Of a DNA stretch of 64,000 nt, positions 39,869 through 45,799 are shown piece after piece; position 1 is the stretch's first letter; every line of letters begins with the position of its first letter. The notes below the pieces were generated by a model. The model did not search any database and was not told where the DNA came from. It saw nothing but the letters and a program-made list of their open reading frames with translations. The position numbers and the translations under genes were made by a program. This DNA is from Phycisphaerales bacterium (GTDB lineage Bacteria > Planctomycetota > Phycisphaerae > Phycisphaerales > UBA5793), in contig JADZAS010000016.1 of assembly GCA_020852515.1 (NCBI GenBank), forward strand, positions 122,155 to 186,154. The letters run 5' to 3'.

Positions 39869-42800
39869 TCAGCGCTTGAAGGTCGCGTCGGCGCGGGCGG
39901 CCTGCCCCGCTTCGATCGTGATGTTCTGCACCTGCTCGCCGAGTTCCGGATGATGGAAAACCAGTTCGTACTGGCCCGGCGGGAGACCGGCGATCTTGAA
40001 CGTGCCGCGCTCGCCCGTCGTGGCGTGGTACGGGTGGCTAAAGGCATAGATGTACGCCTGCATCCAGGCATGAACACTGCAGCCCAGGTGCATCTGCATC
40101 TCCGGATTGGCGAACTCCACGTCCTTGACCATCCCGGCAACCGGCTGGCCCTCATTGAACTGGCCGTTGTTCTGGCTCGTGAACTTGAGATTGTGAGCCG
40201 TGTTGTCCGTGTTCTTCATGCTCAGCGTCTTGCCCGTCGTCACGGTGACCACATGAGGCGTGTAGACGCAGCCGATCTGGTCGATCTCCTTGTCGCCGTC
40301 GAGCGGATTACCCGCGCCCGCGGGCGCGTTGCGGATGAACACGACGACGTCGCGCAGCGAGCCGTTGCCGTTGCGGACGATGTCTTCCTTGTACACCGGA
40401 GTGCCGCGGTTGGCCTGCGCACAGAAGGCGTCCGCGTTGACGTTGATGCGACTGGGGCGCGGCAGTGGACCCTCAACGAGCGCGATGCCGGCCACGGCGC
40501 CCGTCGCTGCGTCGGGGCTCGAGAGCACCTCGGTCACCGCCGCTTCGCGGTCCGCCGTCTGCTCCTCGGGAGTGAGACGTTTGGTCTCGATCTTCTTCGG
40601 CTCAGGCTCGGCTTTGGGTTCCTCAGGCGCGCCGACCTCGCCCCCTTCGCCGGGCGCCGCAACTTCGCCGTTACCCGCCGCGGCCGGCTCGGCTTCGCCG
40701 GCGGCTACGGCGGCCTCGCGCCGCTGCCGGAGCACTTCATCAAGATCCACGGCCGGCGCGGCGGTTGAATCGCCGCTCAGCGCGCTCTCCCCCACTGTGT
40801 AGTGCCGGCTGCCGGCGACCATGATCCACTTCGTGATCAGGTCGATCTGCTCTTCAGCCGTAGCGCCATAGAGCAGTTCCATTCGCTCGCGGCTCATCGG
40901 TCCGGTGTCTGGATAGCCCGCAAACGCGCTGGTGCGCCCATCAGCGCCGAAGAGGCTGGGCATCTTCGTGCCGGGCATGATCGCCTGTGGCTTGCGCAGC
41001 CACTGCTTGATGTAGTCTTCCTGCAGCCGCTCATAGGAGATGCCAAGGTTCGGTGCGCTGATCTGGTCGTAGATGGTCGGTTTTTTCTCAACGGGCGCTT
41101 CGCTCGAGCCGTACGGGTCCTGCTCGTCGCCTCCGTAGGCATCCTCTTCGCCGCCGTATGGGTCCTGCTCCTCGGCCCCGCCGTACGGATCTTCTTCCGC
41201 GCCGCCATATGGATCTTCCTCGGCATATGGGTCCGCTTCATCGGCGCCGCCGAAGTCGCCCATCATCTCAGCCTGCTGGAGGTCGAAGATCTTCTCGAGT
41301 TTCGTCCAGTCGCCAAGCCGATGGCAGGCGAAGCAGCCCAGGTCGGTCACGATGCCTTCGCCCAGTGCAAACTCTTCGGGCGCCATGTCATCCACAGGCG
41401 GGGCCTGGAACGGATAGTCCACGCCGTTGTATGTGTCGCGCAGGAAACGCAGGTCGTACCAGATGCGACCGGCTTTGGCGGCGAACTCGTCGGCCGGATC
41501 ATGGCGAGTGGGATAGGCGCTTTCGGAATAGAGCCCGAATTCGCGTGCGGTCTGGATCAACTGCTCGCGCGTTTTGTCGAACTGCTCGGGCATGAGCATG
41601 CGCCCGACGGCCTTGGACGCCGCGTCCTTGGCGATCTCACCCGCCTTGGCGCCGTTGTTGCCGGCCTGCCGCGCTGCCTCGAAGGCCGCGTTGTACTGCT
41701 TCTCGAACTCGTCGAAAAGCGCCGCGTCGACCGGTTTGAGATGGCTGGCGATCATCCGCGCATCCATCGTCGTCTGCCCCGCGAAGTACTCGACGAGCCA
41801 CTGCGTTTCCTGCGGCTGGAGATCGAAGCTGGGCATGCGGATCTTCAGCCAGGGCCGCAGCATTTCCACGTTGTTGAGGAAGGAGTAGAACCAGTCGTGC
41901 TGGGCCTTGGCGCCGTTGCCGACGATCCGCGGCGGCGCGTTGGGCAGGTTTTCCTGGGTTTGCTGGAAATCGATGCTGCCATCTCTGCGACGGACCTCGT
42001 AATACTGCCGGATGTTGGGCACGTTGTTGTGCACGTCGTGGCAGCCGACGCAGTTGAGCGATTCGGCCATGAGCCGCCCCTTGGCGCGCATCATGCCCAT
42101 GTCGTCGGTGGTCTTCTGCAGGTTGCCGCGCACCAGCGGCGTCTTGAGGCTGGTGACGTAGGTTACCAGTGCCGTGATGTCCGAATCGCGCAGGAAGAAT
42201 CGCGGCATGCGCAACTTGAGGTAGGGTTCGCCCACGGAGCGGATCTCAACCTCGTCGGCGCTCAGGCCGGAATCCTCGCGCGTCTCGACTTCGAGGTACC
42301 GGCCATCGACTTCGATCAGCCGCAGCGAGCGATCGTTCCTGCTCGTATAGACGATCTCGCCGGACTCGGTCATCTCGCCTTCGATGGTGAGCTTGTCGCG
42401 ATCGAAGATGCGGCTGTTGTGCAGTTTGGCGTAGAGGTAGCCGCGGCGATCGTTTTCGACGTGCTCCCACTCCAGCACTCGCTCGCTGAGCAGCGGGTCG
42501 TCCGGATCGCCGTGAACCTTGACGGCGTCCTCGGTCAGCCCTTCGCGCTCCACGAACCAGACGTCCACGGTGGAGGGCCGCTGGTGGTCGAAGATATGCT
42601 CGAAGTAGCCGAAGTCGAGTTTGTGCGGGTCCTTGCGCCCGTAAGCGGAGAGGTTCGCCGACACGGCCAGCGACGAGTCGAAGCCGGGAATCTGGTGGCA
42701 GCCGAAGCAGCCGTAGTGCTGGATCATGCGGTTGCCCAGGTCGAACTGCTTTTCTTCGAGGCTCATCGCGGCGACTTTTTCGCGCGCGGCGCCTTCGGAA

Positions 42801-45799
42801 ATCGCGTTCTTCTGCAGATTGACCAGCAGCGCGTCGACCATCGTCTCATCGACGTCAAAGTGCTGGGGCTCATAGGTCGGGTGCTTTTGCGAGAGCAGAT
42901 ACGCCGCGAGGTCGATCGCTTCCTGTTCGGTCAGGCGCAGACTGGGCATGCGCGTGTAGTCGGAGTAGTGCGACGGGTTGCGGACCCAGTCGTAGAGCCA
43001 GGCTCGCGCCTCGTCGGGCGTGCGGTCGTGGAGCAGTTTGGTCGCCACTCCCGAGAGTTCCGGAGCAAAGTTCGAATAGCGATCCGGCTGGTAGTGCATG
43101 AGGTACCAGTGCAGCCGGGTGTACTGTTCGGGCTTGATGCGCGGCGTCGGATTGCCCGAGCCATCGAGCGCGAAGAAGCCGACGTTGTCTTCGGAGGTCT
43201 CGACTCCGCTGTGGCCCTCGTTCGCCTGCGAATCTTCAGCGATGCGCTGGAGGGCGTCGTCGCGATCAAGTCCAAACCGCTCCTGCAGGTCGATGGCGAC
43301 CCATTCGAGACCAGTCTCATTCACGTTGCTGTGGCACGCAAGGCAGCCGACTTCCTTGAACAGCGTACGGCCGGCTTCGACGTCGCCGGCGATGTTGATG
43401 CCCTCGGCGTCGGCCGGCGGGAGGGCTTCTGGCTGATAGGCCGACTTGCCTGGGTCAGGAGGGGCGACGACGAGGTACTTCGCCATCGCCGCTACTTCGG
43501 CGCGCGTGCGGCGGATATCCAGCGGCGACGAATTGTTCTCCGTCATGAAGAAGTGCGGCATGCGCGTGTTGGGGCGAAACGCCTTGGGCGCCCACGTCCA
43601 CGACGCGATCATGTCTTCGCTCAGTTTGTCCTTCACGTGCACCAGACTCGGGCCCACCTGGCGCACGTCGGGCATGCCCGGCTGGTTCGGCAACGGGCTG
43701 CCCAGTGAATCGACGGCGTGGCAATTGACGCAACCCATTTCCGAGAACAGCAGGCGGCCGCTTGCCAGCACTGGCGCGGTGTCGGCAATCTCCATCTCCT
43801 GCGCGTGGCAGCGATTGCACGACGACTCGATGTAGCGCAGCGCGTGCATCGGCCGTTCCCAGTAGTGAAACGCAACCGGCTCCCAGCCATAGCGATCTTC
43901 CCAGAGGCGCTGCTGCTTGACGGCCCGCGACAGTTCACCCGTGCGCGGGTTGAGATACGCGGCAGATGTCACGTCATGCGCTTCGCTCGGGAAGCCGAAC
44001 GCATCGTCGTACTTCTCGTTGTCAGCGTACCAGTGATCGTCGTGGAACATCTCGGCGTGGGCATCGCCGGCCGCGTCGGAACCGTGTTCGGTTGACCCGT
44101 GCTCAGGAGCCGCGCCCTGCTCGCCCTCGGGGCTGAAGCCGGCGAGCACGACCTGCGGCTGGTCGTCGGCCGGCGCCGCCTGCACCGAGCGGCTCGCCGC
44201 AGATGACTCGCGGATGAGTTTCATGATCTCGCTGTCGGTGCCCTCTTCGCGCACGAGGAAATCGGCCACGAGCATACCGGTGCGCGCATCGACCCAGCGA
44301 TCTTCAGGAGTGTGGGCGGTGTGCACGAACTGCGTTTCTTCACCCGAGCCCTCGTGGCAACTCGTGCAGCCCATTGTGGCGATCGGATGCTTCGAATCCG
44401 GATCGGCAAAGAGATCCAGGCGCGGGTGGGCGAGGATGAGCCGGCTGGCGCTCAGGCGGTGGCGCCCGCGGGACGCGGCGCCCTCGTTGTACTGGTCCAC
44501 GAGCGCGTGGCGGTATTCGTCGAGGAAAGCGCGGCGATCCGGCTTGGACAGCGTCTGGTTGACGATGTCACCCAGCGCCAGGCGATACTCGATGAGCGGC
44601 GCGTACCACGTCTGCCAGTCAGCCGGCCACGCCGCAAGCAGCACCTTGCGAATCGCGCGCACATCGGCCATGCTGGTGACGCCGGTCTGGCCCGAGGGCG
44701 GCGTCCAGCCCGTGCGGATCGGACCCTGCGGCTCAGCCGCGTCGTAGAGCCCGGCAAAGACGGCGACGAGCGCTTCCTGCGCCGCGGCGAGGCGCTCCTG
44801 CGGCTCGCCGCTCTGCGACGGCAGATTCGCCACGGCCTGCTCCCAGAAGCCCAGCACCGCGGCGGGCTCGAGGTCGTACCGGACCAGATCGAGCGTGCGG
44901 CTTTCCTTGCCGCCGGGGAACTCCTCGCCAAGCGCCTGGAACTCGAGGAAGCGCAGGACGGCGTCCTCAGCGTACAGCGGATTGTCAATGGTCACATGGC
45001 AGGACATGCAGCGATCGAGCGTTGGCACCTGCGCGAGATTGACGTCGGTGAGGACGTTCTCGACCTTCTGCTGTCTGATCTTGATCGACGGGTTGAACGC
45101 GTCCAGAATCGGTTTGTCGCGCAGCCAGCCGCCGAGTGCTCCGGCGAGTCCGGGTTCAAGTTCTTCGAGATGGTCAGTGGCCTTCTCGAGATCCGCTCGG
45201 CGGTTCTTGATCTCGAGTTGAAGCGAAGTGATCTCGGTTTCCATCTCGCGGCGCCGGGCCTTCAGATCCTCGATCTGAGCAGTTGCGGCCTGCACCTCAT
45301 TTTCACCGCTGCGCTTCTCGGCCAGCAGCGCCTCGAGCTTCTCGCGCTCGCGCTCGAGCTGTGCGGCGTGTTCAGGCGTTCCGTGGTTCACCTGCACCAG
45401 CGTCTTGAGGCGCTCCACGAGTTGCTGCTGCGGCGCGATGTTGCCGTCGGTGAACAGCTGCAGCTGCTTGATGCGCTTGTCGCGGTCGTACTGGATGCGG
45501 TCGATCTCCTGACCGATGCGCTGGTACTCCGGGTCGGCCTCGAGTGCGCTCTTTGCGGCGCTGAGTTGCGATTCGAGGGCATCCACGTTGGCCATCTGCA
45601 CGCGCAGGTCCGCCACGGACTTGGTCCACCGCGTCATCTCGGTGTCCCAGCGGACCACTTCGACCTGCGGGGCGCGGTACTCGTTGGCCCAGTCCTGAAG
45701 CACCGCCGCGATGAAGCAGATCGCCAGCAGCAGCGACGAGACGGCAAAGATGACGTGGAGTTTGTTCTGGTCGCGGAACGTCTTGGTGGTCACAGGCAC
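39869..45799 (-). CDS. Giant membrane-anchored octahaem cytochrome c with C-terminal cupredoxin-like domain
   Basis: The 1976-residue product has one N-terminal transmembrane helix (about 15-34), a coiled coil (about 45-215) and then eight CxxCH haem c sites at residues 264, 478, 661, 690, 819, 1031, 1250 and 1489. After several haems come Met-ligand-like motifs of class I cytochrome c (NTRMPHF, YTRMPSL, LRMPRFF, IRMPSF, GTKMPSL). An acidic run of six DPYGG-like units lies at about 1523-1566 and an Ala/Pro/Glu-rich linker at about 1690-1770. The end (about 1790-1976) looks like a type 1 copper domain, with H1869 (AHNL), C1907, H1910 and M1913 (CSVHAWM), then a GLPPGQYEL carboxypeptidase-regulatory-like sandwich. 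It should be a periplasmic multi-centre electron carrier. It starts at GTG 45799 behind AGAGGAG. No oxidase or reductase subunit is adjacent. Confidence 0.88.
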   Translation of the reverse strand: MPVTTKTFRDQNKLHVIFAVSSLLLAICFIAAVLQDWANEYRAPQVEVVRWDTEMTRWTKSVADLRVQMANVDALESQLSAAKSALEADPEYQRIGQEIDRIQYDRDKRIKQLQLFTDGNIAPQQQLVERLKTLVQVNHGTPEHAAQLEREREKLEALLAEKRSGENEVQAATAQIEDLKARRREMETEITSLQLEIKNRRADLEKATDHLEELEPGLAGALGGWLRDKPILDAFNPSIKIRQQKVENVLTDVNLAQVPTLDRCMSCHVTIDNPLYAEDAVLRFLEFQALGEEFPGGKESRTLDLVRYDLEPAAVLGFWEQAVANLPSQSGEPQERLAAAQEALVAVFAGLYDAAEPQGPIRTGWTPPSGQTGVTSMADVRAIRKVLLAAWPADWQTWYAPLIEYRLALGDIVNQTLSKPDRRAFLDEYRHALVDQYNEGAASRGRHRLSASRLILAHPRLDLFADPDSKHPIATMGCTSCHEGSGEETQFVHTAHTPEDRWVDARTGMLVADFLVREEGTDSEIMKLIRESSAASRSVQAAPADDQPQVVLAGFSPEGEQGAAPEHGSTEHGSDAAGDAHAEMFHDDHWYADNEKYDDAFGFPSEAHDVTSAAYLNPRTGELSRAVKQQRLWEDRYGWEPVAFHYWERPMHALRYIESSCNRCHAQEMEIADTAPVLASGRLLFSEMGCVNCHAVDSLGSPLPNQPGMPDVRQVGPSLVHVKDKLSEDMIASWTWAPKAFRPNTRMPHFFMTENNSSPLDIRRTRAEVAAMAKYLVVAPPDPGKSAYQPEALPPADAEGINIAGDVEAGRTLFKEVGCLACHSNVNETGLEWVAIDLQERFGLDRDDALQRIAEDSQANEGHSGVETSEDNVGFFALDGSGNPTPRIKPEQYTRLHWYLMHYQPDRYSNFAPELSGVATKLLHDRTPDEARAWLYDWVRNPSHYSDYTRMPSLRLTEQEAIDLAAYLLSQKHPTYEPQHFDVDETMVDALLVNLQKNAISEGAAREKVAAMSLEEKQFDLGNRMIQHYGCFGCHQIPGFDSSLAVSANLSAYGRKDPHKLDFGYFEHIFDHQRPSTVDVWFVEREGLTEDAVKVHGDPDDPLLSERVLEWEHVENDRRGYLYAKLHNSRIFDRDKLTIEGEMTESGEIVYTSRNDRSLRLIEVDGRYLEVETREDSGLSADEVEIRSVGEPYLKLRMPRFFLRDSDITALVTYVTSLKTPLVRGNLQKTTDDMGMMRAKGRLMAESLNCVGCHDVHNNVPNIRQYYEVRRRDGSIDFQQTQENLPNAPPRIVGNGAKAQHDWFYSFLNNVEMLRPWLKIRMPSFDLQPQETQWLVEYFAGQTTMDARMIASHLKPVDAALFDEFEKQYNAAFEAARQAGNNGAKAGEIAKDAASKAVGRMLMPEQFDKTREQLIQTAREFGLYSESAYPTRHDPADEFAAKAGRIWYDLRFLRDTYNGVDYPFQAPPVDDMAPEEFALGEGIVTDLGCFACHRLGDWTKLEKIFDLQQAEMMGDFGGADEADPYAEEDPYGGAEEDPYGGAEEQDPYGGEEDAYGGDEQDPYGSSEAPVEKKPTIYDQISAPNLGISYERLQEDYIKQWLRKPQAIMPGTKMPSLFGADGRTSAFAGYPDTGPMSRERMELLYGATAEEQIDLITKWIMVAGSRHYTVGESALSGDSTAAPAVDLDEVLRQRREAAVAAGEAEPAAAGNGEVAAPGEGGEVGAPEEPKAEPEPKKIETKRLTPEEQTADREAAVTEVLSSPDAATGAVAGIALVEGPLPRPSRINVNADAFCAQANRGTPVYKEDIVRNGNGSLRDVVVFIRNAPAGAGNPLDGDKEIDQIGCVYTPHVVTVTTGKTLSMKNTDNTAHNLKFTSQNNGQFNEGQPVAGMVKDVEFANPEMQMHLGCSVHAWMQAYIYAFSHPYHATTGERGTFKIAGLPPGQYELVFHHPELGEQVQNITIEAGQAARADATFKR

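Follow-up and report, generated by a model that had tools for sequence, protein, structure and literature searches.

A single gene encodes an octahaem cytochrome and a cupredoxin domain

In the window, by which we mean the whole stretch of 64,000 nucleotides analysed, a minus-strand frame without internal stops encodes a protein of 1976 residues. Its start codon is backed by homologues with near-identical N-terminal residues. Eight CxxCH motifs are spread over 1230 residues, from position 264 to position 1489; the composition of the protein predicts 0.006 such motifs, and 16 of its 20 cysteines lie within them. There is a single hydrophobic segment (19-residue windows starting at residues 12–20), followed by a coiled coil whose weak matches are SMC-like and Rad50-like. 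An acidic insert with six DPY/DAYGG-like units gives residues 1505–1575 a net charge of −21. An earlier note on this DNA had listed the eight haem motifs, the transmembrane anchor, the coiled coil and the six acidic units, and all of them were located in the sequence. It had also claimed at least five motifs resembling methionine ligands; five were counted, four of them RMP (746, 950, 1197 and 1321) and the fifth, at M1613, KMP and not RMP. The coordinates are collected in Table 1.

A Pfam search returned cytochrome c domains and a C-terminal CarboxypepD_reg match, and none of the protein's 23 matches (E up to 1) is to a multicopper oxidase or nitrite reductase family. Sequence searches of the PDB gave weak matches, both for the whole protein (best E 0.02) and for the last 213 residues (best E 0.011). 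The fused gene is not a product of chance, since 40 homologues were found, of which the closest shares 89% identity along the full length, and the same fused gene, flanked by the same neighbours, is present in both congeneric genomes that were found. The fused domain is present in 20 of the 40 homologues and absent in the other 20.

Table 1. Features of the fused gene and its product, with positions in the window
Feature	Position	Strand	Basis
Whole gene, octahaem cytochrome c subunit fused to cupredoxin domain	39869..45799	-	frame and full-length homologues
N-terminal transmembrane anchor, residues ~14-36	45692..45760	-	hydropathy
Coiled-coil region, residues ~40-215	45155..45682	-	weak SMC/Rad50-like matches
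Haem site 1, CMSCH 264-268	44996..45010	-	H268 in 28/28
H458, candidate distal haem ligand	44426..44428	-	invariant, 28/28
H471, candidate distal haem ligand	44387..44389	-	invariant, 28/28
Haem site 2, CTSCH 478-482	44354..44368	-	CxxCH motif
H496, candidate distal haem ligand	44312..44314	-	26/28
Haem site 3, CNRCH 661-665	43805..43819	-	CxxCH motif
Haem site 4, CVNCH 690-694	43718..43732	-	CxxCH motif; PF00034 over 679-776
M747, likely distal ligand of haem 4	43559..43561	-	28/28
Haem site 5, CLACH 819-823	43331..43345	-	CxxCH motif
M951, likely distal ligand of haem 5	42947..42949	-	28/28
Haem site 6, CFGCH 1031-1035	42695..42709	-	CxxCH motif
M1198, likely distal ligand of haem 6	42206..42208	-	28/28
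Haem site 7, CVGCH 1250-1254	42038..42052	-	CxxCH motif
M1322, likely distal ligand of haem 7	41834..41836	-	28/28
Haem site 8, CFACH 1489-1493	41321..41335	-	CxxCH motif
Acidic DPYGG repeat insert, residues ~1523-1565	41105..41233	-	sequence; residues 1514-1571 pLDDT <50
M1613, likely distal ligand of haem 8	40961..40963	-	28/28
Predicted disordered linker joining the haem part to the copper domain, residues 1703-1739	40583..40693	-	pLDDT <50
C-terminal unit 1756-1976, transthyretin-like domain with inserted cupredoxin	39872..40534	-	matches stand-alone cupredoxin gene family
Cupredoxin core, residues 1836-1920	40040..40294	-	
H1869, predicted type 1 Cu ligand	40193..40195	-	52/52; aligned to amicyanin His
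C1907, predicted type 1 Cu ligand	40079..40081	-	52/52; amicyanin alignment
H1910, predicted type 1 Cu ligand	40070..40072	-	52/52; amicyanin alignment
M1913, predicted axial Cu ligand	40061..40063	-	52/52 in alignment A2; amicyanin alignment
CarboxypepD_reg (PF13620), residues 1922-1973	39881..40036	-	35.3 bits, cut-off 32.3

Candidate haem ligands

Outside the CxxCH motifs, the only histidines conserved in at least 25 of the 28 aligned family members are H458, H471 and H496. Together with the five conserved methionines they would bring the number of sixth ligands to exactly eight, and from this pattern of conservation the protein probably contains three bis-histidine and five His/Met haems. 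Members of the homologue family share this eight-haem layout and likewise have a hydrophobic segment at the N-terminus. Eight CxxCH motifs are found in 40 of 41 proteins (the 40 homologues and the query), the exception being P0022 with seven. A scan of public genomes, from which the best 80 of 461 loci were retained, 79 of them with an octahaem gene, gave eight motifs in 72 of the 79; six of the remaining seven are truncated or split, and the last, L015, shows seven motifs in an uncut frame.

The cupredoxin domain and its copper site

The C-terminal domain is predicted to hold a type 1 copper-like site in a plastocyanin-like fold. H1869, C1907, H1910 and M1913 are present where the earlier note had placed them, and all four are conserved in the 52 aligned cupredoxin domains of alignment A2, with the C-x2-H-x2-M spacing of amicyanin in the ligand alignment. 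(In the 28 rows of alignment A1, the M1913 column contains M in 14, L in 1 and a gap in 13.) The predicted structure of the C-terminal unit matches plastocyanin and amicyanin over the part that bears the ligands. The earlier note named two findings that would refute its copper site, a placement of H1869 far from the other three residues and a lack of these residues in homologues; the homologues keep the ligands and the fold model agrees, so that the proposal survives as far as alignment and fold comparison reach.

The C-x2-H-x2 motif is present in 73 of 74 cupredoxin domains examined; the sole domain without it (L074, 13732–14568) belongs to a locus that contains two other cupredoxin genes. 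Beyond the copper site, two further residues are conserved, C1844 in all 52 domains and H1849 in 49 of 52 (window 40253–40270, minus strand). C1793, a possible disulphide partner of C1844, is kept in just 38 of 52.

The model of residues 1210–1976, which runs from haems 7 and 8 to the copper site, is poor (pLDDT 69.7, pTM 0.51) and does not fix the position of haem 8 relative to copper. Residues 1514–1571 and 1703–1739 are predicted to be disordered, which would suit a mobile arm. From the sequence, the passage of electrons between haem and copper within one chain is plausible. The net charge of the cupredoxin unit is −5 in the fused protein and −11 in the unfused protein. The idea that a basic cupredoxin docks by charge onto the acidic insert was dropped, as both units are net negative.

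Many relatives lie beside Rieske and cytochrome b genes

By their record labels, the best 80 of the 461 loci come from Planctomycetota, Acidobacteriota, Omnitrophota, Marinimicrobia, Methylomirabilota, Hydrogenedentota, Spirochaetes, Deltaproteobacteria and others. Some labels may be wrong. Among these is L012, labelled Vicinamibacteraceae, whose octahaem protein is 65% identical to that of the window; L045, L061 and L067 are metagenome-assembled loci labelled Kuenenia, with cupredoxin genes in L045 and L061 and cox genes in L045. Cultured relatives with the unfused arrangement are Singulisphaera sp. GP187 (L032), which has cupredoxin genes, and Paludisphaera soli JC670 (L035), in which none was seen.

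Of the 79 octahaem loci among the best 80, 62 extend at least 4 kb upstream of the octahaem gene. A cytochrome b gene of the same, b6-like type lies within 3.5 kb upstream in 54 of them, and a Rieske gene within 8 kb upstream in 55. On the other side, a cupredoxin gene is found within 2 kb downstream in 42 of the 65 unfused loci with downstream room and anywhere in the locus in 49, in a ranking whose query included the cupredoxin and so favours cupredoxin-bearing loci; a cox gene is found in 26 of the 65. In the stretches examined, a cupredoxin gene was not seen in 16 of these 65 loci, nor a cox gene in 39. The counts indicate a common gene order of Rieske, cytochrome b N part, cytochrome b C part, octahaem cytochrome, cupredoxin and, in part of the loci, coxB and coxA. 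The CuA motif is present in 37 of 38 coxB matches and a haem motif in none (three genomes are counted twice), indicating that the donor to CuA is an outside carrier. In one acidobacterial locus (L085, 8636–10687), a frame of 683 residues downstream of cox1 ends in a cupredoxin, perhaps a fusion with a different partner.

Probable partners are encoded elsewhere in the genome

The fused gene is solitary in the window, flanked by PilT-like and nitroreductase genes; in the genus its neighbours are PGK, PilT-like and nitroreductase genes. Neither in the window nor in the two congeneric genomes does a gene for cytochrome b, a Rieske protein or an oxidase adjoin it, and the octahaem gene was found once in this genome. 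The partners are at other sites: a split b6-like cytochrome b on contig C11 (~193640–195680), the cognate Rieske gene at C13:213966–215051 (G000; L096 1396–2484, minus strand), and two COX1 genes, both outside the window. About 120 kb from the fused gene, coxB and coxA are immediately preceded by an unfused cupredoxin gene (C16:291060–291710), whose product is 48% identical to the fused domain. A small monohaem cytochrome (148-residue frame, C22) is also available as a carrier. The remark in the earlier note that no neighbouring oxidase explains the protein is not supported, as a CuA oxidase is linked to it in some relatives and the partners are present elsewhere in this genome.

Co-occurrence was analysed in 22 genomes, seven with the octahaem gene and the first 15 of 20 genomes of the same order without a match. 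The cytochrome b C part was found in all seven and in none of the 15 without a detected octahaem gene. The full-length cognate Rieske protein (E <1e-100) was likewise found in 7/7 and 0/15, with one weak match (2.5e-13) among the 15; the class search scored at most two candidates per genome, so that absence of the octahaem gene from these control genomes is not certain.

Based on these observations, we consider the protein likely to be the octahaem c-subunit of a b6f-like Rieske/cytochrome b complex with a plastocyanin-like carrier tethered to it. Against this, none of the partners shares an operon with the octahaem gene in this genus, and the small monohaem cytochrome offers another carrier. 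The earlier note had proposed a free-standing electron wire across a thick periplasm. A wire of this kind, leading through the periplasm or outward, for example to extracellular or metal acceptors, and working outside complex III, would fit the missing neighbours in the window and the two congeneric genomes, as well as the large size of the protein and its acidic insert. We think it highly improbable: relatives encode the same protein together with Rieske and cytochrome b genes, these genes follow the octahaem gene from genome to genome, and the haem layout and N-terminal segment are family-wide.

Two further observations concern the same genome. A second Rieske/cytochrome b cluster (L009; G000:C13:228000–247000) encodes several proteins with 5 to 13 CxxCH motifs. 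An acidic motif of the DPYG type also ends a CcoO-like oxidase subunit (DPYAEEDPYGSSEEDY), and the C-terminus of coxB, EDEGYGY, shows a weaker likeness to the insert at window positions 41105–41233; these matches lie at L011 8500–9285 and L008 8919–9941 (minus).

The best PDB match of the cognate Rieske protein is 9rk3, Kustd1480 of Kuenenia (E 1.4e-32), followed by 9rk4, the other Kuenenia Rieske protein (1.4e-18), and b6f (4.4e-14). Ahead of its predicted anchor is a ferredoxin-like segment (C-x2-C-x2-C), which PF13370 matches at 23.6 bits, just below the cut-off of 24.5. The same spacing occurs in 10 of the 58 Rieske genes in the best 80 of 461 loci, and a stricter ferredoxin motif in 3. 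This N-terminus may therefore hold an iron-sulphur cluster at the opposite membrane face. Both the segment and the kinship with Kustd1480 would agree with bifurcation as proposed for the Kuenenia complexes, in which one electron would go towards NAD(P)H or ferredoxin on the inner side and the octahaem-copper arm would drain the other to a favourable acceptor. The linkage seen in some relatives is to an oxidase, however, and bifurcation seems to us very unlikely here.

Origin of the fusion

The fusion was verified in G000, G107, G172, G053 and G127, that is, in at least 5 of 298 genomes; this is a lower bound, because, of the 89 genomes that gave a match, the DNA of 15 was read. Shared open-frame length had suggested additional fusions in G220, G212, G266, G160, G130, G104, G083, G200 and G181, where the two are separate genes. 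Reading the DNA of G098 showed no cupredoxin on its short contig. G053, G104 and G083 are apparently the same records as L016, L018 and L021.

The best 80 of 461 loci include six fused ones. Cytochrome b adjoins none of the six, one of which is cut upstream; cox genes are present in four, and a second, unfused cupredoxin gene lies directly downstream in three. L018 has an unfused octahaem-cupredoxin pair away from cytochrome b and ahead of coxB/coxA. In a quick tree of 101 cupredoxin domains, 27 fused domains and 7 unfused domains from the same lineages form one set (support 99), and six of these seven unfused cupredoxins were seen beside coxB. The fused domain of G127 instead clusters with its own neighbouring cupredoxin and that of L018 (support 98). 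A single group of all 28 fused domains was rejected (AU p 0.017) in a test that used the cupredoxin part alone and a quick tree, with G127 added after the first tree had been seen. In the octahaem tree, calculated with FastTree (which gave long-branch warnings) and without G127, L015 and L017, the fused rows form one set (99) that includes the domain-less P0017 and P0022, and the L018 octahaem protein sits next to the main fused set. P0022 is labelled partial by its source. P0017 is nested in the fused set and ends without the domain, indicating that the domain can be lost.

Read from these sequences, the simplest history is apparently duplication of the cupredoxin followed by fusion of one copy, twice. 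The same pattern would result if fusion had occurred once, with later gene conversion in the G127 line and loss in L018.

The history also bears on what the domain does. If the octahaem protein is the c-subunit of complex III, the fused domain might handle copper, by delivery to CuA, storage or sensing, and carry no electrons. Unfused copies often adjoin coxB/coxA, the extra cysteine C1844 is invariant, and SCO1-like and haem O synthase-like genes, identified by sequence reading, lie in the cluster of this genome, so that copper insertion is possible. The ligand set and its amicyanin spacing, however, are those of an electron-transfer site, and a chaperone role does not predict fusion to an electron-transfer chain, apparently on two occasions. 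We regard copper handling as unlikely.

Proposed electron route

Mobile carriers between complex III and the oxidase are usually small diffusing proteins. In the tethered-carrier reading that we favour, quinol would be oxidized at the Rieske/cytochrome b part, and the electron would pass from the Rieske cluster to the membrane-anchored octahaem chain. It would leave through the type 1 copper domain on its flexible arm and reach the CuA centre of an aa3-type oxidase, either straight away or by way of the second cupredoxin, the unfused one whose gene adjoins coxB/coxA. That the protein is loaded with haem and copper and assembles with cytochrome b, that electrons flow in this direction and that the oxidase receives them is what we infer from these data.

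A fuller proposal, which we put forward tentatively and hold a little short of evenly balanced, is that of a complex III with its own plastocyanin. An eight-haem wire and a swinging type 1 copper arm to the CuA oxidase would replace the diffusing carrier; the link would have evolved, apparently twice, from a widespread Rieske-cytochrome b-octahaem-cupredoxin-oxidase cluster, as a non-photosynthetic parallel of the b6f-plastocyanin pair. With a plastocyanin-like end on the donor subunit, the route from b6f-like complex through octahaem and copper to CuA oxidase is open to direct test, and a candidate physiological acceptor emerges for octahaem Rieske/cytochrome b complexes.

Comparison with known systems

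Two Kuenenia complexes contain a b6-like cytochrome b, a subunit IV-like protein and a 'hexa- or octaheme' cytochrome, according to the available part of their description (PMC12954380). By our own reading, Kustd1485 is the octahaem one of the two cytochromes. It is the larger c subunit, and in an AlphaFold3 model its long helices wrap the complex (PMC12954380, available part), which fits the coiled coil of the fused protein. The system described here resembles Kustd1480–1485, as far as that partial account goes, in its b6-like cytochrome b, subunit IV-like protein, Kustd1480-like Rieske protein and membrane-anchored multihaem c subunit with long helices. It differs in that the c subunit ends in a cupredoxin and some relatives are linked to a CuA oxidase, whereas the feature of Kuenenia is its added NAD(P) reductase subunits. 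The same text, in the part available, states that nothing has been proposed as the favourable redox reaction of Kustd1480–1485, and the available main text contains no mention of cupredoxin (PMC12954380).

The bc-like operon of Nitrospina gracilis includes an octahaem cytochrome, and its structure is common to Kuenenia and Methylomirabilis oxyfera (PMC3578206, available part). Our gene set is like this operon in combining b/b6-type genes with an octahaem c cytochrome. An octahaem-cupredoxin fusion is not described for the operon in the available part of that paper, which does consider copper carriers toward the oxidase or bc complex for another cluster (PMC3578206). In a methylomirabilotal locus of our scan (L041), the order is cytochrome b, octahaem, cupredoxin and coxB, with octahaem and cupredoxin as separate genes.

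Haem c and cupredoxin on one chain have a precedent in the three-domain haem-copper nitrite reductase of the Ralstonia pickettii type (PMC6278305, available part). Unlike that enzyme, the fused protein lacks a copper nitrite reductase core in Pfam searches, has eight haems and would serve a different role. Its copper domain also departs from plastocyanin and amicyanin: it sits within a transthyretin-like domain and is joined to a membrane subunit with eight haem sites. The literature searched, mainly open-access, describes octahaem complexes and contained no octahaem-cupredoxin fusion. The octahaem part thus appears, from its sequence, to be of an already-known kind, and the copper end on the same chain would be the new element as far as this literature extends.

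Subunit II of caa3 oxidase consists of CuA and a fused cytochrome c. The protein described here is similar in that a carrier is fused to its respiratory partner and a diffusing step is removed. In caa3 the carrier is on the oxidase; here the copper carrier would be on the c-subunit of the donor complex, and the coxB proteins contain no haem motif.
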